From a virus, in the IMG/VR virus record IMGVR_UViG_3300000116_000094, positions 3,428 through 33,595 of that record: 30,168 nucleotides of DNA; one strand, 5' to 3'. This document shows positions 2,586-26,354 of the stretch, in pieces; the first letter of the stretch is position 1; every line of letters begins with the position of its first letter. Below the pieces are notes generated by a model. It saw only the letters and a program-made list of their open reading frames with translations, was not told where the DNA came from and searched no databases. The translations under genes were made by a program, and so were the position numbers.

Positions 2586-3657
2586 CGACATCAATCTCTC
2601 CAGGCATCTGGAAATCTGCATCAACCTTATCATAAAGTTCTATAAATGATTGCCTAGTCTCATCATCAAAACGATTGACACATACTTGAATTGATTTTGC
2701 CTTATCTTTGAAGATGCTAAAGGCACGGATAATATGAACTAGACGGCGGGTGCTGATAATTTCATCAATCCCACCATCATTAAAGGTCTTACGAATGATG
2801 TCTGCCCAATCCACAAGACGTTTGCAGAAGTCACGATCTTCCACGCCAAGATCTAAAGCAATACCCTCAAGAATTTTTTGTTCAATTGAAGGAGTTGGAT
2901 ATTCTTGTTCAAAGGTTACAGGAAACCTCTCAAGGAATGCTTCGTTAAGAACATTTGTTCCAATAAACCGACCATCTTCAGAACCCTTACCCTTAGTATT
3001 GGCAGTAGCAATGACGTTAAATCCATTTTTAGGTGTTACATACGTACCAATCTTCTTCAAGAACACCCCCTTACCCTCAAGGATTGATTGAAGACAAAGG
3101 ATTTTATTGGAGGCGAGGTCAACCTCATCAAGGAGCAAGATTGCTCCACGCTGGAGTGCTTCGATGACTGGACCATTATGCCAGACAGTGTTGCCGTCCA
3201 CAAGACGAAACCCACCAATAAGATCGTCTTCATCAGTTTCTACAGTAATGTTTACACGAATCAATTCACGACCGAGAGTAGCACATGCTTGCTCTACAGA
3301 GAACGTTTTACCATTGCCCGAAAGACCCGTAATAAACGTTGGATAAAATAGACGGGACTGAATAATTTTTTTAAGATCACCAAAGTTCCCAAACTTGACG
3401 AAGGTATCATCTTTATAAGGAATCAAGTTTTGCTCATCATTAGGCATAACAGGAGATGCCTGATATGTATGCTCTAGTTTTTCTTGAGCAGTAAGATTCC
3501 AACGACCACGAGAAACTTTACAATCCGATAGTTTATTTGTGATTGTTTGATAATTAGATCCGTTCATAGCACACCAAGCACGAATGTCCGCAGAAGTTAC
3601 GGACTCACCATATAGATTTTGAAGGGAGGATACGATGTACTCGGAAGTGAGAGACAT
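2563..3657 (-). CDS. cobS: MoxR/CobS-like AAA+ ATPase
   Basis: A 364-residue AAA+ ATPase. Walker A GLSGNGKT is at 111-118, Walker B LLLDEVD at 174-180, a sensor-1 Asn in ATANTKG near 220, and the arginine-finger stretch FLERF at 241-245. The family is routinely called CobS (cobaltochelatase subunit, vitamin B12 synthesis) in cyanophages, where it is near-universal. It also belongs to the MoxR group, which works with VWA-domain partners. Directly upstream is such a VWA protein with a protease motif, so a MoxR/VWA remodelling pair is at least as plausible as metal chelation; no CobN-like large subunit is present in this window. N-terminal residues 1-50 look like a small helical DNA- or partner-binding region. 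The leader resembles that of the upstream gene. Confidence 0.85.
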   Translation of the reverse strand: MSLTSEYIVSSLQNLYGESVTSADIRAWCAMNGSNYQTITNKLSDCKVSRGRWNLTAQEKLEHTYQASPVMPNDEQNLIPYKDDTFVKFGNFGDLKKIIQSRLFYPTFITGLSGNGKTFSVEQACATLGRELIRVNITVETDEDDLIGGFRLVDGNTVWHNGPVIEALQRGAILLLDEVDLASNKILCLQSILEGKGVFLKKIGTYVTPKNGFNVIATANTKGKGSEDGRFIGTNVLNEAFLERFPVTFEQEYPTPSIEQKILEGIALDLGVEDRDFCKRLVDWADIIRKTFNDGGIDEIISTRRLVHIIRAFSIFKDKAKSIQVCVNRFDDETRQSFIELYDKVDADFQMPGEIDVVDASPLN

Positions 3658-5935: not shown

Positions 5936-6658
5936 TTAAACTGGCACAGTATCTAAAACATTGATAGTAGGAACCCATCCAGTACTACTCAGCAGACTAA
6001 TGTCCGCCACATTATCCTGCCTCTCACCAGGTGTCAAGTTTTTAACTGGCAAATGCCCCATTCCCATTTTTTTAGCAAGATCCTTAACAAACACAGACTT
6101 TCCAGAACCCACAGAAACTGGTCCACAAATATCACTGGTAGCAAGATAAGCAATAGCACGACAGACATCATGTACATGTATCCAATCTCTTTTATGATTA
6201 GTTACATAGGTTGCAGTTCTATCTTCAAGCATTCTATACATCATATCTGAGCGACTATCTGAACCATAAACCGTAGTGAATCGCATTCCAACTGAATTGT
6301 GTGGTGCCATCTGCTCATTAATCCACTTGGTCATTGCATATGGATTTTCCCAATATTCTTCTTCTACTGCACTGGAAGAAGCATAAAGGAGTCTGGTGTT
6401 TGTTTCTCTACACCAATCAAATAATTTTTTTGCTTTAATTACATTATTTTCATAAAACTTTTTAGGGTTCTCCAAACTCTCTCGAATATTAGCAAATGCT
6501 GCAAGATGAATGACTAGATCATAATCACCACCATCAAAATTTTCAACACCATCTGGTATATCAATACCGTCTATATTTGAATCTTTTAAATTGTCTTGAA
6601 AATAAGAAAATACATTTTTACCAATAAATCCTTTATGCCCAGTAATTAAAATTTTCAT
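5936..6658 (-). CDS. NAD-dependent epimerase/dehydratase (short-chain, extended type)
   Basis: A 240-residue Rossmann-fold protein. GHKGFIG at 7-13 is the dinucleotide-binding GxxGxxG, LAAFA lies at 52-56, a Ser-rich stretch ASSSAVE at 93-99 supplies the catalytic Ser, and Tyr107/Lys111 in NPYAMTK form the YxxxK pair. This is the nucleotide-sugar epimerase/dehydratase group; the exact sugar cannot be read from the sequence. At 240 residues it is shorter than typical members (about 300), with a trimmed C-terminal substrate domain. The start ATG overlaps the gp46 stop (ATGA), so it is co-translated with recombination genes. It may modify host or phage surface sugars or DNA-base sugar precursors; that is inference. 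Confidence 0.88.
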   Translation of the reverse strand: MKILITGHKGFIGKNVFSYFQDNLKDSNIDGIDIPDGVENFDGGDYDLVIHLAAFANIRESLENPKKFYENNVIKAKKLFDWCRETNTRLLYASSSAVEEEYWENPYAMTKWINEQMAPHNSVGMRFTTVYGSDSRSDMMYRMLEDRTATYVTNHKRDWIHVHDVCRAIAYLATSDICGPVSVGSGKSVFVKDLAKKMGMGHLPVKNLTPGERQDNVADISLLSSTGWVPTINVLDTVPV

Positions 6659-16706: not shown

Positions 16707-17360
16707 TTACAGTGAACTTAAAAAATCGTTAAATAGACTTAATTTATTCTCTTCCAATACTCTTTGCTTACAAGCAGATTCAATTTTTAATTTTGCTTGT
16801 GCTGCGAGTTTTTCGCGAAGTATACCTCCTTCCCAAACCCAATCTTTTCCTTCCATAATTCCCTGAACAAATGCATCAGGTGCAGAAGGATCTGCAACGA
16901 TATCAGCAGCAGTTGCTAACATGAAATCTTCACCAACTTCTTTGCAACCAGTTTTGGTATTGTCTCTTAATGATCCAATACCACGAGAAGAAACGCCAAG
17001 AGTTACTCCGTCTTTTAGTAAAGATTCTGCAATCTTGCCCATTGGAGTAGATAGAATTTGTGCCTTACCTATAAAATTATTCCCAGACTGCTTTAGTTCG
17101 GTAATTTTATGAGATACCCTATCAAGATTTACTGTGGGTCCATCGGGATGACCCAATTCACCAAGAGCTCTTCCTTTATCAATATAATCTTTACAATAAC
17201 GATTTACTTCCCTTTCCATAATTTGAAAGGGATATAATCTATTATTGCGATTTACCATCTCACTTTGAAGAAATACGCCCTTAATGAACATATTTTTCTT
17301 ACCATTAACAGTCTCGGTAATAACCTCTACTTTTTCAATTTCTTCTCTTATTAATTTCAT
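16707..17360 (-). CDS. 21: Prohead core protein protease gp21
   Basis: Serine protease that matures the prohead by cutting gp23, gp22 and other core proteins. The 217-residue product (T4 212) has GELGHPDGP with the catalytic His at about 71, and TLGVSSRGIGS with the catalytic Ser at 124 or 125, the assemblin-like arrangement. The N-terminal FLQSEMVNRNNRLYP is typical of the family. No ribosome site is visible before the ATG; a late element lies 26 bases upstream. Confidence 0.93.
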   Translation of the reverse strand: MKLIREEIEKVEVITETVNGKKNMFIKGVFLQSEMVNRNNRLYPFQIMEREVNRYCKDYIDKGRALGELGHPDGPTVNLDRVSHKITELKQSGNNFIGKAQILSTPMGKIAESLLKDGVTLGVSSRGIGSLRDNTKTGCKEVGEDFMLATAADIVADPSAPDAFVQGIMEGKDWVWEGGILREKLAAQAKLKIESACKQRVLEENKLSLFNDFLSSL

Positions 17361-17430: not shown

Positions 17431-17595
17431 TCATTCTTTGTCGTCAGAATCTGCATTATCAAACATTGAATTGTTAACATCTGGTCGAATTGCTTCTATT
17501 TTTTCCGAAGTTTTTGAGTAAAGAAGATCTTTAATCTTGTCAGAAACATCAGAGGGTGACGAGTCACCAATAACCATATCTAAAATATCATCCAT
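17431..17595 (-). CDS. Small acidic prohead-core-like protein (gp67/gp68 position)
   Basis: A 54-residue ORF starting MDDILDMVIGDSSPSDVSD and ending FDNADSDDKE, acidic and helical with an amphipathic middle (DKIKDLLYSKTSEKIEAIRP). It occupies the slot between portal and protease genes where T4 has 67 and 68, small prohead core components, and cyanophages have a short gene of this sort. Assignment to 67 or 68 is by position and composition, not by strong similarity. A late element lies 24 bases upstream of the start, part of a divergent promoter pair with the radical SAM cassette. Confidence 0.75.
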   Translation of the reverse strand: MDDILDMVIGDSSPSDVSDKIKDLLYSKTSEKIEAIRPDVNNSMFDNADSDDKE

Positions 17596-17618: not shown

Positions 17619-17626
17619 TATTTATG
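17619..17626 (-). promoter_or_regulatory. Late promoter element for the small core gene (minus half of a divergent pair)
   Basis: CATAAATA on the minus strand, 24-31 bases before the start at 17595. It shares its first base position with the plus-strand element at 17626-17633; together they form TATTTAT-G-ATAAATA. Confidence 0.65.
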
Positions 17627-17633
17627 ATAAATA
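17626..17633 (+). promoter_or_regulatory. Late promoter element for the radical SAM cassette (plus half of a divergent pair)
   Basis: GATAAATA on the plus strand, 21 bases before the ATG at 17654, with a GGGA ribosome site between. It uses the same ATAAATA core as the virion genes, which predicts gp55-dependent late expression of the cassette. Confidence 0.6.
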
Positions 17634-17653: not shown

Positions 17654-19456
17654 ATGAATAATATATATCTTTTTCAACCCCAATATACTGTAGAAGTTCG
17701 TACTGAAGAAAATCATTGGATGCCATACAGTGTTGGATGTTTATGGAGTTATTGTAGTCAATTTGATGATATAAATGAACATTATAATTTAAAAAGATTT
17801 ATTTTCAAAAGAGAAAATCCAGATGAACTTATAGATAGTTTGGAAGATCCATTCTTATGTGCTTTTAGTTGTTTTATATGGAATGAGCAATATAATCTCA
17901 CAGTTGCTAAAAAAATAAAAGAAAAATATCCGAACTGTATTATTGAGTTTGGTGGTCCTCAGGCATCAGAAGCAATGCTGGATACGTATGATTTTATTGA
18001 CTGTATTATGCTTGGTGGTGATGGAGAAGAAAATTTTTTAGATCTTTTAAGATTATTATATAAAGGAAATACTTTCCCAAGAGTTTATCAAAGAGGTCGA
18101 ATAACTGATTTAAATATACCCAGTCCATATACTTCTGGTGTATTTGATAAACTTGTTGCTGATAATCCAGAAGTAATTTGGGCATCTATGCTTGAGACTA
18201 ATAGAGGATGTCCTCATAGATGTACTTTTTGTGACTGGGGTGGAACAACATATGGCAAAATACACCAGTTTGCTTTAGAACGTGTTGTTGAAGATATAAA
18301 TTGGATGGTTGAAAATAAAGTTGCTTATATCTTTGTCACTGATGCTAACTTTGGAATATTTGGTGAAAGAGATATCTATCTAGCAGGTCTTTTGAGAGAG
18401 GCAGGACAAAATATTAAAAGTGATATTGAAGATATTGTTATTCAATATAGCAAAAATTCAAATGAAAATGTTTTTAAAGTTGCAGAAGCATTGGGAGAAT
18501 ATTGTAAAAGAGGGATTACGATTAGTGCTCAAAGCATGAATCAATCAACACTTAAAGCAGTAAAGAGGAAAAATTTAAGCATTAAAGATTATTCTCATCA
18601 TATGAAACTTGCTAAAGAGTATAATGTTCGTACATACACTGAAATGATATTGGGATTACCTGAGGAAACCTTAGATTCTTGGAAAGATGGTTTTACAACA
18701 TTACTTGAAAATGGGCAACACGAATCAATTGATGTATGGTTCTGTCAAGTTTTTGGAAATACTGAATTGAATAGTAATTTATCTAGAGAAGTATATGGTA
18801 TAGAAACTATTAAAGCTGAAGATTATCTTTCTTTTACTAACAATAAAAACTGCATTGAAATAAAGGAGATTGTTGAAATAATCAATAAAACAAATACTAT
18901 GTCAACTAAAGATATTGTTGATGCGTATCTTTATAGTTGGATGATAATACAATTTCATATAAATGGTTACTCTCAGATAGTTGCAAAATATTATAAAAAA
19001 GTAAAAGGAATATCATATCGAAAGTTTTATGATAAGTTGTTGGAATATATAAAGTCCGATGATAGTTTATATGGACTTCATTATAAAAGTTTATATGATA
19101 GACTTCATATTTACTTATCTACTGGTAAGATTGTAACTGACGGAGATACTGGTCACTCATTAGAAATGTCAATGGCACATGACTTTAATATATTTTGGGA
19201 TAACAAAAATGATGTATTTAATTTAGTAAATTCTTGTTGGGAAACACCTGAAGATATATTTGCAATTCAAAAGAATTTTGTATATAATCCTGATACAGTA
19301 TATCCATATGAATTTGAATCTAGTATTGACTTTGAAACTGGAGATCTGACACCAGTCAAATATAGTATGACTAATCATGTAAGTGAAGAGAATAGATATA
19401 ATTTATGGCATATAAGGAGATGTGGTTTTGATAAAAATATTCTGGTAAAATTATGA
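17654..19456 (+). CDS. Radical SAM protein with B12-binding-like N-terminal domain (cassette copy 1)
   Basis: A 600-residue protein. Residues 1-150 form an alpha/beta region with IYLFQPQY at the start and IIEFGGPQ at 96-103, as in the cobalamin-binding domain of B12-type radical SAM enzymes, but the DxHxxG cobalt-ligand motif is not visible. The radical SAM core starts at ETNRGCPHRCTFCDWGG with CX3CX2C at Cys186, Cys190 and Cys193, which binds the 4Fe-4S cluster; VTDANFGIFGERD, AQSMNQSTLKAVKRKN and ILGLPEETLDSWKDG follow as later core motifs. A C-terminal region of about 200 residues is unassigned and has no second cluster motif. Substrate unknown. Every neighbour is on the other strand; the stop overlaps the next start (ATGA), so the two are co-translated. 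Confidence 0.9.
   Translation: MNNIYLFQPQYTVEVRTEENHWMPYSVGCLWSYCSQFDDINEHYNLKRFIFKRENPDELIDSLEDPFLCAFSCFIWNEQYNLTVAKKIKEKYPNCIIEFGGPQASEAMLDTYDFIDCIMLGGDGEENFLDLLRLLYKGNTFPRVYQRGRITDLNIPSPYTSGVFDKLVADNPEVIWASMLETNRGCPHRCTFCDWGGTTYGKIHQFALERVVEDINWMVENKVAYIFVTDANFGIFGERDIYLAGLLREAGQNIKSDIEDIVIQYSKNSNENVFKVAEALGEYCKRGITISAQSMNQSTLKAVKRKNLSIKDYSHHMKLAKEYNVRTYTEMILGLPEETLDSWKDGFTTLLENGQHESIDVWFCQVFGNTELNSNLSREVYGIETIKAEDYLSFTNNKNCIEIKEIVEIINKTNTMSTKDIVDAYLYSWMIIQFHINGYSQIVAKYYKKVKGISYRKFYDKLLEYIKSDDSLYGLHYKSLYDRLHIYLSTGKIVTDGDTGHSLEMSMAHDFNIFWDNKNDVFNLVNSCWETPEDIFAIQKNFVYNPDTVYPYEFESSIDFETGDLTPVKYSMTNHVSEENRYNLWHIRRCGFDKNILVKL
18194..18240 (+). repeat. 47-base direct repeat, copy 1 (radical SAM cluster motif)
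   Basis: Identical in sequence to 19987-20033; encodes ETNRGCPHRCTFCDWG. All third codon positions agree, unlike flanking parts of the two paralogues. Confidence 0.85.
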
Positions 19457-21219
19457 GAAATGTTTACATGTTTCAACCACAGTATTCTGTAGAAGTTAGA
19501 AAAGAAAATACTTATTGGTTACCATATAGTGTTGGGTGTCTTTGGGCATATTGTATGCAATATGAAGATGTTGCTAGTGCATTTTATCTTGCCGATCTTA
19601 TATTCAAAAGAGAAAATCCACAAAAACTTATTGATCGACTTATTGACCCAGTTGTATGTGCATTCAGCTGCTATGTATGGAACGAACAATATAATTTGCA
19701 TGTTGCAAAACTAATTAAGGATAAGTATCCTGATTGTATAATTGAATTTGGAGGACCTCAAGTAACAAAAAAATATGAACAGTATGAATTTATAGATTGT
19801 TTAATTTTGTCTGAGGGCGAAGAGGCATTTTTAGATCTTCTTAGTAGTGTGCTAAGAGAGGAACCGTTTGAAAAAATATACAATAAGAATAGAATAAATG
19901 ATTTAGATTTTCCAAGTCCATATCAAATGGGAGTTTTTAATAAAATTGTCAAATCAAATCCAGATGTTCTTTGGTCAATGACTGTAGAGACTAATAGAGG
20001 ATGTCCTCATAGATGTACTTTTTGTGACTGGGGAACTGTTACATATGGTAAGATTAATAAATTTGGGTTGGAAAGAGTGTCTCAGGATATTGCCTGGGCA
20101 GAAACTCATAATGTTGGTTTTATATTTAATGCGGATGCAAATTTTGGCATTTTTAAAGAACGTGATATTGAAATTGCCAAAATGTTTAGAAAGGCAGCAG
20201 ACAATGGAAAGTTAGAAGCAGTAAATGTTCAATATTCAAAAAACTCTACTGAGGTTATTTTTGAAATTGCTAAAATTTTAGATGATATTAGTAGAGGTGT
20301 AACTTTAAGTGTTCAGAGTATGAATGAACCAACTCTTAAAGCAATTAAGAGAAAAAATATGAGTATCAATAAAATATCTGACCAAATTAAAAAGAGTAAA
20401 GTATGGGGAGTAAAAACATATAGCGAACTGATTCTTGGACTTCCTGAAGAATCATTAGATAGTTGGAAAGAAGGATTCTCAAAAATTTTAGAGTGTGGTC
20501 AGCATGAGTCTATCGATGTTTGGTTTTGTCAATTATTTGGTGATACTAGTTTAAATAGTTCTACTTCGAGAGAAGTGTATGGAATTAAAACAATCAAAGC
20601 AGAAGACTACATGTCTTTTAGTAGTGATCAAGGTGATGTTAGAGAAATAATAGAATTGGTATGTGAAACAAATACTATGAGTAATGATGAACTTATTGAA
20701 TCATATATGTATGGGTGGTTGATAGTTCAATTTCATATTGCAGGTTATACTCAACTTATTGCAAAATATCTTTATGAAAATATGAATATATCATATAGAA
20801 ATTTTTATGATACTTTATTTGAATATGTTAAAAATAGTTCTGGAATAATTGGTAATCATTATAGTGAAATTGAAAGATCTGTCTCTTGTTATATGAAAAC
20901 TGGCAAAATTTTGACTAATGGTAAGCATGGACATACACTTCATGCAGAAAGTTTTGCCTTCATGTTTACAAATAAATCTGCAGTATTTGAAATTGCTGAG
21001 GAAGCAATTAAAATATTCTCTTTAACAAATACTGATATTATAAAGATGCAGAAAGCGTTTATTTTTGATGAAAATATTAAGTATCCTTTTTATTTAAAAT
21101 GTTCAGATAGTACTTATAAAGTTGATAGTGAATTTAAACAATTTGATAAAAATGACCCTCACACCGTTTTTATTCTGCGGCGTAAAGGTCTTTTAAAAAA
21201 TCAATTAACTATTATTTAA
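19453..21219 (+). CDS. Radical SAM protein with B12-binding-like N-terminal domain (cassette copy 2)
   Basis: A 588-residue paralogue of the preceding gene, similar along its whole length (about 60% identical by eye in the first 100 residues). The cluster motif is CX3CX2C at Cys184, Cys188 and Cys191 in NRGCPHRCTFCDWG, followed by NADANFGIFKERD, VQSMNEPTLKAIKRKN and ILGLPEESLDSWKEG. The HESIDVWFCQ.FG and SREVYGI.TIKAEDY blocks are shared with copy 1. The cobalamin ligand motif is again absent. Retention of all catalytic motifs in both copies suggests two working enzymes with different substrates or a heterodimer. The TAA stop directly abuts the gp20 stop on the other strand. No terminator is seen after it. 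Confidence 0.9.
   Translation: MRNVYMFQPQYSVEVRKENTYWLPYSVGCLWAYCMQYEDVASAFYLADLIFKRENPQKLIDRLIDPVVCAFSCYVWNEQYNLHVAKLIKDKYPDCIIEFGGPQVTKKYEQYEFIDCLILSEGEEAFLDLLSSVLREEPFEKIYNKNRINDLDFPSPYQMGVFNKIVKSNPDVLWSMTVETNRGCPHRCTFCDWGTVTYGKINKFGLERVSQDIAWAETHNVGFIFNADANFGIFKERDIEIAKMFRKAADNGKLEAVNVQYSKNSTEVIFEIAKILDDISRGVTLSVQSMNEPTLKAIKRKNMSINKISDQIKKSKVWGVKTYSELILGLPEESLDSWKEGFSKILECGQHESIDVWFCQLFGDTSLNSSTSREVYGIKTIKAEDYMSFSSDQGDVREIIELVCETNTMSNDELIESYMYGWLIVQFHIAGYTQLIAKYLYENMNISYRNFYDTLFEYVKNSSGIIGNHYSEIERSVSCYMKTGKILTNGKHGHTLHAESFAFMFTNKSAVFEIAEEAIKIFSLTNTDIIKMQKAFIFDENIKYPFYLKCSDSTYKVDSEFKQFDKNDPHTVFILRRKGLLKNQLTII
19987..20033 (+). repeat. 47-base direct repeat, copy 2 (radical SAM cluster motif)
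   Basis: Second copy of the repeat at 18194-18240, at the equivalent codons of the second radical SAM gene. Flanking bases diverge at once on both sides. Confidence 0.85.
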
Positions 21220-22878
21220 TTAAATTTCTGGTGCTTCTGTACTTCCTCCATCTTTTACACCATCAAGATCTGGTTCTTGAATTGGTTTTCCTAAATCCTC
21301 TCCTCCTGTAGGAATTGGTTCTCCAGTTGTAGGATCAATTGGTGCATTGGGATCTGGAATAATTCCAGCGGCAATTTCCATTTTAATAAGTTTATCCTGC
21401 TCAATAATCTCCTCATCAGTCTGACGCAACATCTTACGTCTTACAAAATCTTGAGAATAGTACTTACCAATATAAGGTTCAGCAGTAGCAACAATATTCA
21501 GTCTTTCTGTCATTAACTCAGCATCTTTAAGTTCTGAGAAGTGGTTATCATACAAGAAGTCATATTGAATATGTTCACTCATAATCTCCCAATCTTCAGG
21601 AGAAACAATATTTTTGAGAAGAAGTTGAGTTCTTAAAAGATCACTGAACATATTTGAGAATCTTTTTCTCAACCTACCAACAAATTTAGTAAACTTAAGT
21701 TCATCTCTCAAAATTTCTGAGGATCGACCAAGATTAAATCCTTCTTGACCACCAATTCTGGATGATGGCACATTTAGTGAGCGATATAGTTTTTCTTGGA
21801 AGTACTTAATGTCAGACAACTCTCCCAGATTTTGTCCACCAGGTAATGTAGTGATCTCAGTTCCTCTACCACCTTCACGCCTAGGAAGCCAAAAATCTTC
21901 AAGCATAGACATATGCTTTTTATCATCACGAACTTCTCCAGTATTAGAATCATAAACAAGTTTGTTACGATATCTCATCATAACATCACGAAGATATTGT
22001 TCTGCTTTCATTTTAGGCAGATTGCCAACATCAATATAAAAGATGCGACGTTCTGGTGCTCTTGACATTCTGTAGATTACCAAAGAGTCTTCGATCATAC
22101 GGAGTTGATTAAGACCTTTGATTGCTTTGTGCAAATATGAAAGTGTTAGATTTTTATTGCGGTCTACAAGACCTGAAGTGCAGTATGTAATAGAATCTTT
22201 AGAGAATTTGACACCATTAGATGCTTGATTATTTCCTCTATTAATAATACCAGTTTGACTTGCTGACTGATTGTATATAAAGTATTCTTGAATATCTGGA
22301 AAATCTGTATTTTTTTGTTCTTGTTGACTGGGAAGATATCTAGCACTATTATCTTCTTTTTTCTTACCTGCTTGTCTTACAAAACGCATTTTTAATGCGT
22401 CAATATAACGCAATTCTTGAATCCCTTCTGTAGGATTCTTCATATCAATTACTTTATGATAATAAAGTCTACCATCAACATACCAATTTCTGTAAATTTC
22501 ATGGCACTTTTTGTCAAAATCTAGTAATGATAAAATATATTTAAATTCTTCTCTAATTTTTCTTTTTAATCCATCACTTACGTTCAAATTAGATAACTCA
22601 ATTTGAACTGGAGTATCATTAGTATCACTTACAATAGCTTCATTAACAATATCCTCAATTGCACCATCAACCTCTGGGTGCAATGCCATCTCTCTATATC
22701 TTCTAATTAAATCGTATTCTGATTTATAAACTCCTTCAATATCAACATAAGAACCAAAAAATCCACTAGTTAGATAGTGATCAACTCCATCCTCATTATT
22801 TTGAGGGACAGGAGAAGACACTTCTTTAGTGGATTTTTTATTATTATCTTCTATCGAGAATCCAAATAACTTGGCCAT
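21220..22878 (-). CDS. 20: Portal vertex protein gp20
   Basis: Dodecameric portal at the head vertex, through which DNA is packaged and the tail joined. The 552-residue product (T4 524) contains YREMALHPEVDGAIEDIVNE near the N-terminus, SYLHKAIKGLNQLRMIEDSL and RAPERRIFYIDVGNLP in the middle, all hallmark blocks of the cyanophage g20 marker gene. The C-terminus is proline- and glycine-rich (PDPNAPIDPTTGEP). A late element overlaps the gp19 stop upstream. No ribosome site is evident. Its stop abuts the oppositely oriented radical SAM gene. Confidence 0.97.
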   Translation of the reverse strand: MAKLFGFSIEDNNKKSTKEVSSPVPQNNEDGVDHYLTSGFFGSYVDIEGVYKSEYDLIRRYREMALHPEVDGAIEDIVNEAIVSDTNDTPVQIELSNLNVSDGLKRKIREEFKYILSLLDFDKKCHEIYRNWYVDGRLYYHKVIDMKNPTEGIQELRYIDALKMRFVRQAGKKKEDNSARYLPSQQEQKNTDFPDIQEYFIYNQSASQTGIINRGNNQASNGVKFSKDSITYCTSGLVDRNKNLTLSYLHKAIKGLNQLRMIEDSLVIYRMSRAPERRIFYIDVGNLPKMKAEQYLRDVMMRYRNKLVYDSNTGEVRDDKKHMSMLEDFWLPRREGGRGTEITTLPGGQNLGELSDIKYFQEKLYRSLNVPSSRIGGQEGFNLGRSSEILRDELKFTKFVGRLRKRFSNMFSDLLRTQLLLKNIVSPEDWEIMSEHIQYDFLYDNHFSELKDAELMTERLNIVATAEPYIGKYYSQDFVRRKMLRQTDEEIIEQDKLIKMEIAAGIIPDPNAPIDPTTGEPIPTGGEDLGKPIQEPDLDGVKDGGSTEAPEI

Positions 22879-23549: not shown

Positions 23550-26354
23550 TCAAACTCTACCAGCAACTTCTTCAAACGAGATACCTGTTCTCGTTGCAAC
23601 GAATGTGAGTGTTACATAATTAATTGACTTAGCAGGCTTCAGGAAGATGTCTGCTCTGAATTCATTATTGTCAATAACATCAGGTGTATTATTGGTCTCA
23701 TCACAAATTACAAGATAGTCATAAATACCGCGCTTAGATTGAATGTCGCGGAGATATGGTTCAACAATATTTACGAAGTTAGTTCTTGTAATTTGATCGT
23801 TGAATTCAAAGAGTTGTGCTTCTGCTGCTTTTTTCAGAGATTGCTCAACTGTAAGGAACAAGCGACGAACATTGATTCTATCAAATGCCGATGAATATGC
23901 CAGAGCAGTTTTATCTCCGAAGAGAAGAATACCAGCACCTGATTGATTAATTACAGAGTTGACTCTATTTGTATAAAGTATATCTCTTTGTGTCTTATCT
24001 GGATTAAATGCTAATTTGATAGCATTTTTAATAACACCTCTCTGCTGACCTGCGGGGGAGAACCATGGGAAAGAAATAATATTTGTTCTACACATCAATC
24101 CTGCAATATCTGCATTAGTTGGAATGTATCTGAACAGATTATTAAATCTATCATATGTATACTTATAACCACTATCAAAAATTGCATATGATGAAGATGA
24201 AAGTGGACCAAAGAACTCAACTATATTGGCAGTTTGAGTTACTGGATTTGGAATATCAACAATTGATGCTCTATGAGGACCAATTAAAGCAATACAATCC
24301 TTTCTTCCATCTGCAATTGAGATCAGTTTATTTGCCTTTGCTTGAGACTCATTAAGAGTATCAAGTCCAGGACCCATCAGTAAATAATCTACAGCGACAT
24401 CTTCTACATTATTGAAGAGATCATATGCTTCTACAATTCCACCAAGATCAGTCTTCATATTTCCAGTGGTAGTATAATTACTACCTATTCCCATTGTGTA
24501 AGTTGCTTTACTAATAGAACTAAATGCTCGGTTTTTAGCTGGAAGATCCCAAGACATTTCTGAAGCAACATTAGGATATGAGAATGTTGTTGATGGATCA
24601 CCAGTATATGGTGATGGAGTTGCAGTTTCCGAGAATATTGTGCTTGCAGGGAATGTGTTGTGGAAAGGATCGTTCTGAGTACTTTGATTTGCTCCTGCGT
24701 AGATATACTTGGAGAAATTTGCAAGATAATTCTTGTACCACATTTTTTGTGGTGAATTTACTGCAGATACGGTATCTACTGCTTTAGAGAGGAATAAATG
24801 CTTCTCTACAACGTTACCACGAACTCCAGTCAAATCTCCACTGTCATCAACGACGACGACGTGCATCTCATCATTTTCACCACCACGTTCTGCAGCATAT
24901 GCAGATGTTCCAGGTTTTGGTGCAATAGTTTTCCAGTAGATCTTTGAATTTTCCAATCCAAGATCTTGACCATTATACCAATCATCAATACCTGAAACTT
25001 GAACTCTAGAATTACTTTCTGTAACTGAGAGAATTACTTTATCATCTCTTAGTGATACAACAGAAATAGTCGCATTATCGGTAGGTGCTGTACCTCCAAT
25101 CGTATTGCCTTCAAGTGTAATTACTGTACCGACCTCGTATCCAAGACCAGTATTAATAGCAGTTACAGTTCCAATACCACCACCAGAATCTCTATAGACA
25201 TTAAATGATATTCCAGAACCAACAGTACTTACCCCTGCGACCGAGAGATATTGTCCATTAGATGCAGCAGGTATTGTTGTGAATGTTGTTACTCCACTAA
25301 CAGAACTAACTGCACCTTGAATGAGATCAAAACCACCAACAGATGAACCACCAATTGATACTGTATCATTTACAGTATATCCTGCACCAGCATTTACAAT
25401 AACAACACCAGTAAGATCTATATTTCCATCTGTATTGTTACGTGTAATATTAAATGTTGCACCACCACCACCACCAGCAGTTGTTCCACCAACCCCAGTA
25501 TATGTTTGACCTTGTTCTCCATTGATAGGTGTTGTAGTTGTAATACCTACAGATGCAACTGAATCAGTAGGTGATGTAACTAATCCGTTATTGTCAGTAA
25601 AAGTAAGTCTTTGGCCAATTAGGAATGATGCGTAGCTGCTATTCTGTGAATACTTCTGTCTAAAATGTCTACCTGGTTCTGTACCACCTGTAGATACTCT
25701 AGAGTGAATTTTTACAGTACACGTACTAGTTTCAAAAGTTTCACCGTCAATAACGTTAGTAATAATACCTTTAAGATATCCTTGGAATGATTCAGTAGTT
25801 CCTGCTCCAGGAATTACTTGTCCAGAAATATCTACTGTAACACCATAACCAATAGCAGCACCTAAACTTGTAATTGATGTTGTAGCAAAACCAACAATTT
25901 GATCTCCACCATCATCAATTACACAAACCTTCAGGTCATTTGCCCATTCCCCTGGATTCTTTGATGCATAATACCAATCTGCCGCTGAGGAAGAGAAGTT
26001 GCTATTGTAGTCATCAAAGTTTTTAATTTTGATTCCACTTTTAGCAGAAGAACCTACGCCAACGTTAGCATTTGTAAGTAGATCTCCGTCAGTACGAACA
26101 ACTTTCAATACACCGCCGTATGATAGATACGAAGATGCACTCATCCAGTATTCATACTGATTGTCGCCCGTCTTTGGTAAACCAAAGTTGTTGATTAATT
26201 CTTGTTCTGTTGATACCGTAACGGGTTCGTTTACAGGACCAATCTCAAAAGGACCCGCAATACCCCCAATGTTATCAAGAACGTTTTCAGCTCTTCCTAC
26301 GGTTAGATCAATCTCTCTAGTGATTATCCCAGGAGATAATTGAGGAGTCGCCAT
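23550..26354 (-). CDS. 18: Contractile tail sheath protein gp18, enlarged
   Basis: Forms the contractile sheath around the tail tube. The start SPGIITREIDLTVGRAENVLDNIGGIAGPFEIGPV and the C-terminal third (GRKDCIALIGPH, IKLAFNPDKTQRDILY, FLKPAKSINYVTLTFVATRTGISFEEVAGRV, each a short known block) match sheath proteins. At 934 residues it is well above T4 gp18 (659). The extra mass lies at about residues 150-435 and includes a Gly-rich run and two related blocks (NAGAGYTVNDTV and NTGLGYEVGTVI). These probably form an additional surface domain. The ribosome site AAAGGAGAT is strong and a late element stands 39 bases upstream. Confidence 0.95.
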   Translation of the reverse strand: MATPQLSPGIITREIDLTVGRAENVLDNIGGIAGPFEIGPVNEPVTVSTEQELINNFGLPKTGDNQYEYWMSASSYLSYGGVLKVVRTDGDLLTNANVGVGSSAKSGIKIKNFDDYNSNFSSSAADWYYASKNPGEWANDLKVCVIDDGGDQIVGFATTSITSLGAAIGYGVTVDISGQVIPGAGTTESFQGYLKGIITNVIDGETFETSTCTVKIHSRVSTGGTEPGRHFRQKYSQNSSYASFLIGQRLTFTDNNGLVTSPTDSVASVGITTTTPINGEQGQTYTGVGGTTAGGGGGATFNITRNNTDGNIDLTGVVIVNAGAGYTVNDTVSIGGSSVGGFDLIQGAVSSVSGVTTFTTIPAASNGQYLSVAGVSTVGSGISFNVYRDSGGGIGTVTAINTGLGYEVGTVITLEGNTIGGTAPTDNATISVVSLRDDKVILSVTESNSRVQVSGIDDWYNGQDLGLENSKIYWKTIAPKPGTSAYAAERGGENDEMHVVVVDDSGDLTGVRGNVVEKHLFLSKAVDTVSAVNSPQKMWYKNYLANFSKYIYAGANQSTQNDPFHNTFPASTIFSETATPSPYTGDPSTTFSYPNVASEMSWDLPAKNRAFSSISKATYTMGIGSNYTTTGNMKTDLGGIVEAYDLFNNVEDVAVDYLLMGPGLDTLNESQAKANKLISIADGRKDCIALIGPHRASIVDIPNPVTQTANIVEFFGPLSSSSYAIFDSGYKYTYDRFNNLFRYIPTNADIAGLMCRTNIISFPWFSPAGQQRGVIKNAIKLAFNPDKTQRDILYTNRVNSVINQSGAGILLFGDKTALAYSSAFDRINVRRLFLTVEQSLKKAAEAQLFEFNDQITRTNFVNIVEPYLRDIQSKRGIYDYLVICDETNNTPDVIDNNEFRADIFLKPAKSINYVTLTFVATRTGISFEEVAGRV
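25047..25487 (-). repeat. Tandem Gly-rich repeat domain inside gp18
   Basis: Two related blocks of about 50 residues, residues 290-345 and 378-436. The best-conserved part is N-x-G-x-G-Y-x-V-x-x-x-V-x-x-x-G-x-x-x-G-G at 321-341 and again at 401-421. The first block begins with five glycines encoded by a GGT-type trinucleotide run (25461-25475). Confidence 0.7.

Follow-up and report, generated by a model that had tools for sequence, protein, structure and literature searches.

Predicted cobalamin-dependent radical SAM methylases encoded as a pair, with swapped alleles, in the virion gene block of a lineage of T4-like phages

Why does a T4-like phage carry two radical S-adenosylmethionine (SAM) genes, oriented against its virion genes, between those for the prohead protease and the portal? 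We have considered here this gene pair, A and B, in a stretch of DNA of 30,168 nucleotides (the window; positions 3,428 to 33,595 of IMG/VR virus record IMGVR_UViG_3300000116_000094), part of a 33.6-kb virus record from a T4-like phage. A sequence-only reading had described a cassette of full-length, coupled paralogues running opposite to the virion genes, and this layout was borne out. The recognised T4-like core genes (gp45, a gp46-like gene, uvsW, gp23, gp22, gp21, gp20, gp19, and gp18) all lie on the minus strand, with A and B on the plus strand between gp21 and gp20; both open reading frames (ORFs) are intact, encode products of 600 and 588 residues that are 51% identical over their full length, and contain CPHRCTFC, a CX3CX2C motif. 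The start of B overlaps the stop of A by 4 nt (ATGA), and the stops of B and gp20 adjoin with a 0-nt gap (21219/21220). The nearest cultured counterparts of the portal are those of cyanomyoviruses (75% to Synechococcus phage S-SM2 and 74% to S-SCSM1), from which we infer that the host is a cyanobacterium.

Antibiotic pathways and the modification of methanogen enzymes are the best-known settings for cobalamin-dependent radical SAM methylases. Predicted fold and conserved residues give good support to A and B as members of the TokK/CysS type (class B) of these enzymes, and both presumably act as methylases. The Pfam Radical_SAM profile (PF04055) matches A and B at 57.2 and 39 bits, above the curated cutoff of 29.5, and the Pfam B12-binding profile matches B weakly (24.8 bits; cutoff 32.1) and A not at all; the N-terminal B12-binding Rossmann domain is seen in the fold match to TokK and CysS, which starts at residue 1. 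In PDB sequence searches the best match is TokK (7kdx; E 3e-71 for A and 3e-79 for B) and the next is CysS (about 1e-37), while a PHROGs search gave no family for either protein. The top NCBIfam model is that of the KedN5-type methylcobalamin C-methyltransferases (NF033712; E 4e-46 and 8e-48), but we rejected membership of that subfamily because the scores, 157.5 and 163.1 bits, are far under its curated cutoff of 700 bits.

B as modelled by AlphaFold (predicted local distance difference test [pLDDT] 83.5, predicted TM-score [pTM] 0.83) resembles TokK most closely (Foldseek E 3e-42, TMq 0.87; VIA Z 32.0, root-mean-square deviation 2.6, 566 residues aligned), then CysS (Z 28.2), with other cobalamin radical SAM enzymes next at Z 16–17. 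The active-site loop of the model (residues 184–199) has low pLDDT, which may reflect cofactor-free modelling. The cluster cysteines are invariant in 21 aligned viral proteins, as are W76 and the C-x-W tryptophan (W193 in B, W195 in A; 21/21). These correspond to the hallmark tryptophans of TokK, W76 below the cobalt and the C-x-W residue W215 (PMC9692996), and roles have been described in TokK and CysS for both the bulky cobalt-side residue (Trp76/Trp75) and the C-x-W tryptophan (PMC9692996, PMC12846815).

B shares with TokK, the Streptomyces carbapenem C6 methylase (PDB 7kdx/7kdy), the fold, the CX3CX2C motif, the cobalamin N-domain, both tryptophans, and a similar C-terminal domain, although B is only 28% identical to it by structural alignment, and A and B are virus-encoded as a tandem pair and stand in no antibiotic cluster. 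CysS (cystobactamid; PDB 9n1b-d) and KedN5 belong to the same methylcobalamin-dependent C-methylase class with the same domain order, but identity to CysS is about 20% and its gate Trp271 is not kept. The radical SAM label of the sequence-only reading was correct at the level of the superfamily and too generic, having missed the N-terminal cobalamin-binding domain, and profile and structure searches place the homologues in an enzyme class that is already known and for which structures have been solved. Since the likeness to TokK and CysS runs over the whole length, C-terminal substrate domain included, A and B could make or edit, for use during infection, a cofactor or a diffusible small molecule of a natural-product-like, pantetheine-linked type, as those enzymes do for carbapenems and cystobactamids. 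However, no carrier-protein, nonribosomal peptide synthetase, or polyketide synthase family is present among the annotated neighbours of the related genes, whose recurrent partners are sugar genes, and we regard this explanation as distinctly unlikely.

In the chemistry expected of such an enzyme, one SAM would charge cob(I)alamin and a second, on cleavage at the [4Fe-4S] cluster of the CX3CX2C motif, would yield a 5’-deoxyadenosyl radical; the radical would take a hydrogen off an sp3 carbon of the substrate, and methylcobalamin would then give the methyl group. In a cyanobacterial host the cobalamin used would probably be pseudocobalamin, the sole form that over 95% of cyanobacteria are said to make (PMC5816740).

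The cassette appears to be expressed late. The sequence GATAAATA is located 20 nt upstream of A, and the element TATTTATGATAAATA is divergent, with a plus-strand ATAAATA (17627–17633) facing the cassette and a minus-strand ATAAATA (17619–17625) facing a 54-residue ORF. The late element NATAAATA is a motif known from cyanophage S-PM2 (PMC2984593). It is not enriched across the window (15 found against 15.45 expected), and the promoter claim holds instead from positional and comparative tests. Of 36 related loci, which share ancestry, 34 have a divergent TATTTA(0–3 nt)NTAAATA ahead of the cassette, as against 0.16 expected from shuffles preserving mononucleotide content only, and by position ATAAATA lies upstream of gp20 in 23/23 loci, gp22 in 33/33, gp21 in 27/36, and gp18 in 13/20. 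The position and conservation of the motif support late expression of the cassette from an element of the virion-gene type, as the sequence-only reading had proposed. We also note that the acidic 54-residue ORF has a late-type element of its own.

Table 1. Coordinates of the cassette and associated features in the window
Feature	Position	Strand	Remarks
A, TokK-like cobalamin-dependent radical SAM methylase (predicted), 600 aa	17654..19456	+	CPHRCTFC 186-193, W76, C-x-W W195
B, TokK-like cobalamin-dependent radical SAM methylase (predicted), 588 aa	19453..21219	+	CPHRCTFC 184-191, W76, C-x-W W193
Divergent late-promoter-like element TATTTATGATAAATA	17619..17633	both	
Small acidic ORF, 54 aa, begins MDDILDMVIGDSS	17431..17595	-	Divergent from cassette; left border of cassette
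gp21 prohead protease	16707..17360	-	Left flank of insertion site
gp20 portal protein	21220..22878	-	Right flank, convergent with B
gp18 sheath, Gly/Thr-rich insertion (residues 257-447)	25014-25586 within 23550-26354	-	

The cassette is a stable resident of this site. Wherever a T4-type locus includes both flanks (26 loci), the cassette lies between gp21 and gp20 and runs against them, and the A and B genes of adjacent pairs share 4 nt in all but one locus (L014, 8 nt); the copy number departs from two at L111 and L131 (three copies) and at L113 (one). In a gp20 tree with 44 non-carriers the carriers form one clade (31 rows, support 95), and in a sample drawn by gp20 without regard to the cassette, it is present in 13/13 members of the clade whose sequence continues for 1.7 kb or more past gp20. 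The ratio of nonsynonymous to synonymous substitution (dN/dS) for A and B, comparing the window with L003 and L010, is about 0.09–0.16, similar to gp20 and gp21, and both genes are under purifying selection by this measure. A working pair, as the sequence-only reading proposed, accords with two genes that are catalytically intact in sequence, coupled, and retained together across the lineage, and the conserved pair at its late-type promoter fits two differentiated enzymes.

Neither is the pair an oddity of one genome, since uncultured viruses commonly have relatives, which by profile scan are encoded in at least 580 IMG/VR stretches. No close relative came up among 50,697 phage records, with only two distant matches (about 24% identity). 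Among the matches listed from a pattern-based cellular scan, from which the best 80 loci were taken, identity to A and B reaches about 36%, in gut Clostridia. An origin of A and B from the host was rejected, as cyanobacteria are represented among these 80 loci by one Sericytochromatia metagenome-assembled genome (MAG) only. The viral proteins form one virus-only clade (support 100), two very divergent extra genes aside, and A and B are sister clades (97/95) inside a T4-type subclade. A single copy at the same gp21-gp20 site (L158) branches ahead of the A/B duplication, and a contig of other context (L004) falls in the B clade; by this tree the pair is the product of one duplication in one cyanomyovirus-type lineage. 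Several loci have further genes of related kinds. The gut Clostridia MAG contigs with the nearest cellular relatives among the matches listed (L028 and L029) have three to four TokK-like genes per neighbourhood; L005 (7833–9896) and L142 (from 14332) each have, near the viral-clade copy, another B12-type radical SAM gene, very unlike it, that groups with cellular rows; and in a 130-kb viral contig a second radical SAM protein is encoded directly upstream of the viral-clade methylase (L007, 7036–7995).

What might the methylases act upon? In most related T4-type loci a gene of about 305 codons is situated ahead of A, and in many a minus-strand gene of about 220 codons follows B. PHROGs and structure comparison settle the 305-residue family as GT25-like glycosyltransferases: it matches the glucosyltransferase family phrog_2835 (E 4e-28), its predicted fold matches mimivirus R655 and COLGALT1 (VIA Z 12.6 and 12.4), and it is related to GT25-annotated, lipopolysaccharide (LPS)-type glycosyltransferase genes in cyanophages, with Pfam and PDB profile searches giving little (Pfam GT25 E 0.036 in 6/14 members). 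The 220-residue family carries an HxD...H...R pattern, and from that pattern we would guess at a 2-oxoglutarate (2OG)-Fe(II) oxygenase. Sugar genes recur elsewhere too. The 30 non-T4 viral loci with a relative have, in counts that are not independent and with neighbours annotated partly by eye, a nucleotide-sugar epimerase in 21, a DegT aminotransferase in 19, a glycosyltransferase in 17, a 172-residue HxD...H family in 20, GTP cyclohydrolase in 20, and a PhyH-like protein (weak) in 14. The epimerase and DegT neighbours are confined to the non-T4 loci, and the GT25-like gene is present in 25 relative loci but absent from this site in the window; two cellular relatives, in Elusimicrobia (L079) and Pelagibacteraceae (L046), stand among epimerase, DegT, and sugar-kinase genes.

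The alignments show alleles of A and of the glycosyltransferase swapped across several backbones. We compared 60 pairs of loci with gp20 identity of at least 95%, pairs that are not independent of one another. A is below 70% identity in 25 of the 60, and the glycosyltransferase in 19/33, but none of the near-identical pairs falls below 70% for B, the 220-residue protein, gp19, gp21, or gp22. Two or more A alleles are present in 5/9 backbone groups, and sliding identity shifts sharply at gene borders, with flanks mostly 90–100% identical. The swapped segment may comprise the glycosyltransferase and A (L115/L116), the glycosyltransferase, A, and B (L110/L127), or the glycosyltransferase alone (L118/L119). 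A, the faster-evolving of the two in relatives, varies more than B across all domains, and because only ten positions are fixed differently between them, different substrates for A and B cannot be argued. The gp21-gp20 junction evidently tolerates insertions, as varied small genes occupy it in other cyanophages, including cultured S-SCSM1 and S-SKS1, and A and B could be ordinary auxiliary genes parked there, their variability arising from neutral recombination. This account is weakened by a dN/dS of about 0.1, by retention of the cluster cysteines, both tryptophans, and the promoter motif, by the site never having been lost in the sampled lineage, and by the concentration of swapping in A and the glycosyltransferase, mostly sparing B, and we think it very unlikely.

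We propose that A and B belong to a late-made module, subject to allele swapping, by which a sugar or a surface structure belonging to the virion or host is C-methylated and glycosylated, and we put the chances that this is correct at about even. The sequence-only reading had suggested late modification of a virion or host molecule, and the gene contexts fit one that is a sugar or surface molecule; given the nucleotide-sugar neighbours, the GT25-like partner, and the allele swapping, a glycan or nucleotide sugar is our best inference for the substrate. Late in infection the phage would produce A and B, together in most relatives with the glycosyltransferase, and a virion protein or the host envelope would come to bear a sugar or glycan-linked group that is C-methylated. 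B may perform a common step, with the variant set by A and the glycosyltransferase, whose alleles would be traded among near-identical phages under pressure to keep altering surface chemistry. That the fixed locus and its recombining alleles constitute a variation system, in which lytic phages use virus-only B12 radical methylases with swappable glycosyltransferases to alter how the surface of virion or host is methylated and glycosylated, is somewhat less likely than not, and we advance it tentatively.

A number of observations count against the proposed module. Radical SAM clusters are oxygen-sensitive and awkward in an oxygen-evolving host, and the solved relatives TokK and CysS use pantetheinylated small molecules, not sugars. 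For the 220-residue protein, Pfam and PDB profile searches gave little, hhalign against the 172-residue HxD...H family gave no support, and tblastn in phages gave no match; the lack of independence also reduces the weight of the neighbour counts. The window itself, from a record that is only a 33.6-kb fragment, has neither the GT25-like gene nor the 220-residue gene at gp21-gp20, so its pair need not work with those proteins.

Collagen hydroxylysine is glycosylated, and Mmp10 methylates side chains of methyl-coenzyme M reductase. The resemblance of the glycosyltransferase to COLGALT1 and mimivirus R655, and the late-type promoter beside virion genes, could likewise indicate that A and B C-methylate side chains of a virion protein that the putative oxygenase and GT25-like enzyme hydroxylate and glycosylate. 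The tail sheath is a possible acceptor, being 912–940 residues in carriers as against 718–824 in non-carriers (two split or partial ORFs excluded), with an insertion at residues 257–447. However, sheath and cassette each track the same single lineage and the link is confounded, and we have set the enlargement aside as evidence of an acceptor; moreover, the sheath is nearly constant where the A and glycosyltransferase alleles are swapped (L115/L116), and TokK and CysS take small molecules. Modification of a virion protein in this way seems unlikely.

Some DNA hypermodification pathways combine a glycosyltransferase, an oxygenase, and a methylase, the make-up seen here if the oxygenase is real, and escape from host restriction would suit allele swapping. 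The cassette might then add methyl and sugar groups to bases of phage DNA, but the late-type promoter would come into play once most replication is over, no family of base-modification enzymes turned up, the GT25-like glycosyltransferase clusters with LPS-type glycosyltransferases annotated in cyanophages, and the cellular relatives are in polysaccharide clusters. We consider DNA hypermodification highly improbable.

The methylation and glycosylation module that we favour has parallels of a kind in cyanophages. The LPS/glycan clusters of P-SSM2, S-SM2, and S-SSM7 include GT25 and other glycosyltransferases and nucleotide-sugar epimerases (PMC3037559), but their records have no close cobalamin radical SAM methylase, and the clusters are located outside the virion block, close to hli03/phoH. 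The cultured Synechococcus phage S-SCSM2R has a glycan-like cluster that unites several GT25-like enzymes with 2OG oxygenases and a radical SAM protein, although the last is of the SkfB/NifB/PqqE type by annotation, not the B12 type, and the site differs; this locus (L175, PQ898602) also contains an inosamine amidinotransferase and an AHBA-synthase-like gene. The cyanomyovirus g15-g18 hyperplastic region (PMC2984593) similarly receives variable insertions within a structural module, whereas gp21-gp20 has one fixed cassette whose alleles vary more than its gene content. A literature search on phage-encoded cobalamin radical SAM methylases returned nothing on point. The earlier statement that no described system has this form holds in that we found no phage system of the same form, and needs qualifying for the P-SSM2 and S-SM2 clusters, which are akin in kind. 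Apart from the cassette, the window has a short NAD-dependent epimerase/dehydratase (5936–6658, 240 residues) beside the gp46-like recombination gene, an odd spot for a sugar gene.

If the large virus-only clade is what it appears to be, viruses would control the demanding chemistry of radical C-methylation, and infection would be tied to the host supply of B12 or pseudo-B12. Near-identical phages that naturally differ at the cassette only would make the gain from phage glycan genes directly testable.

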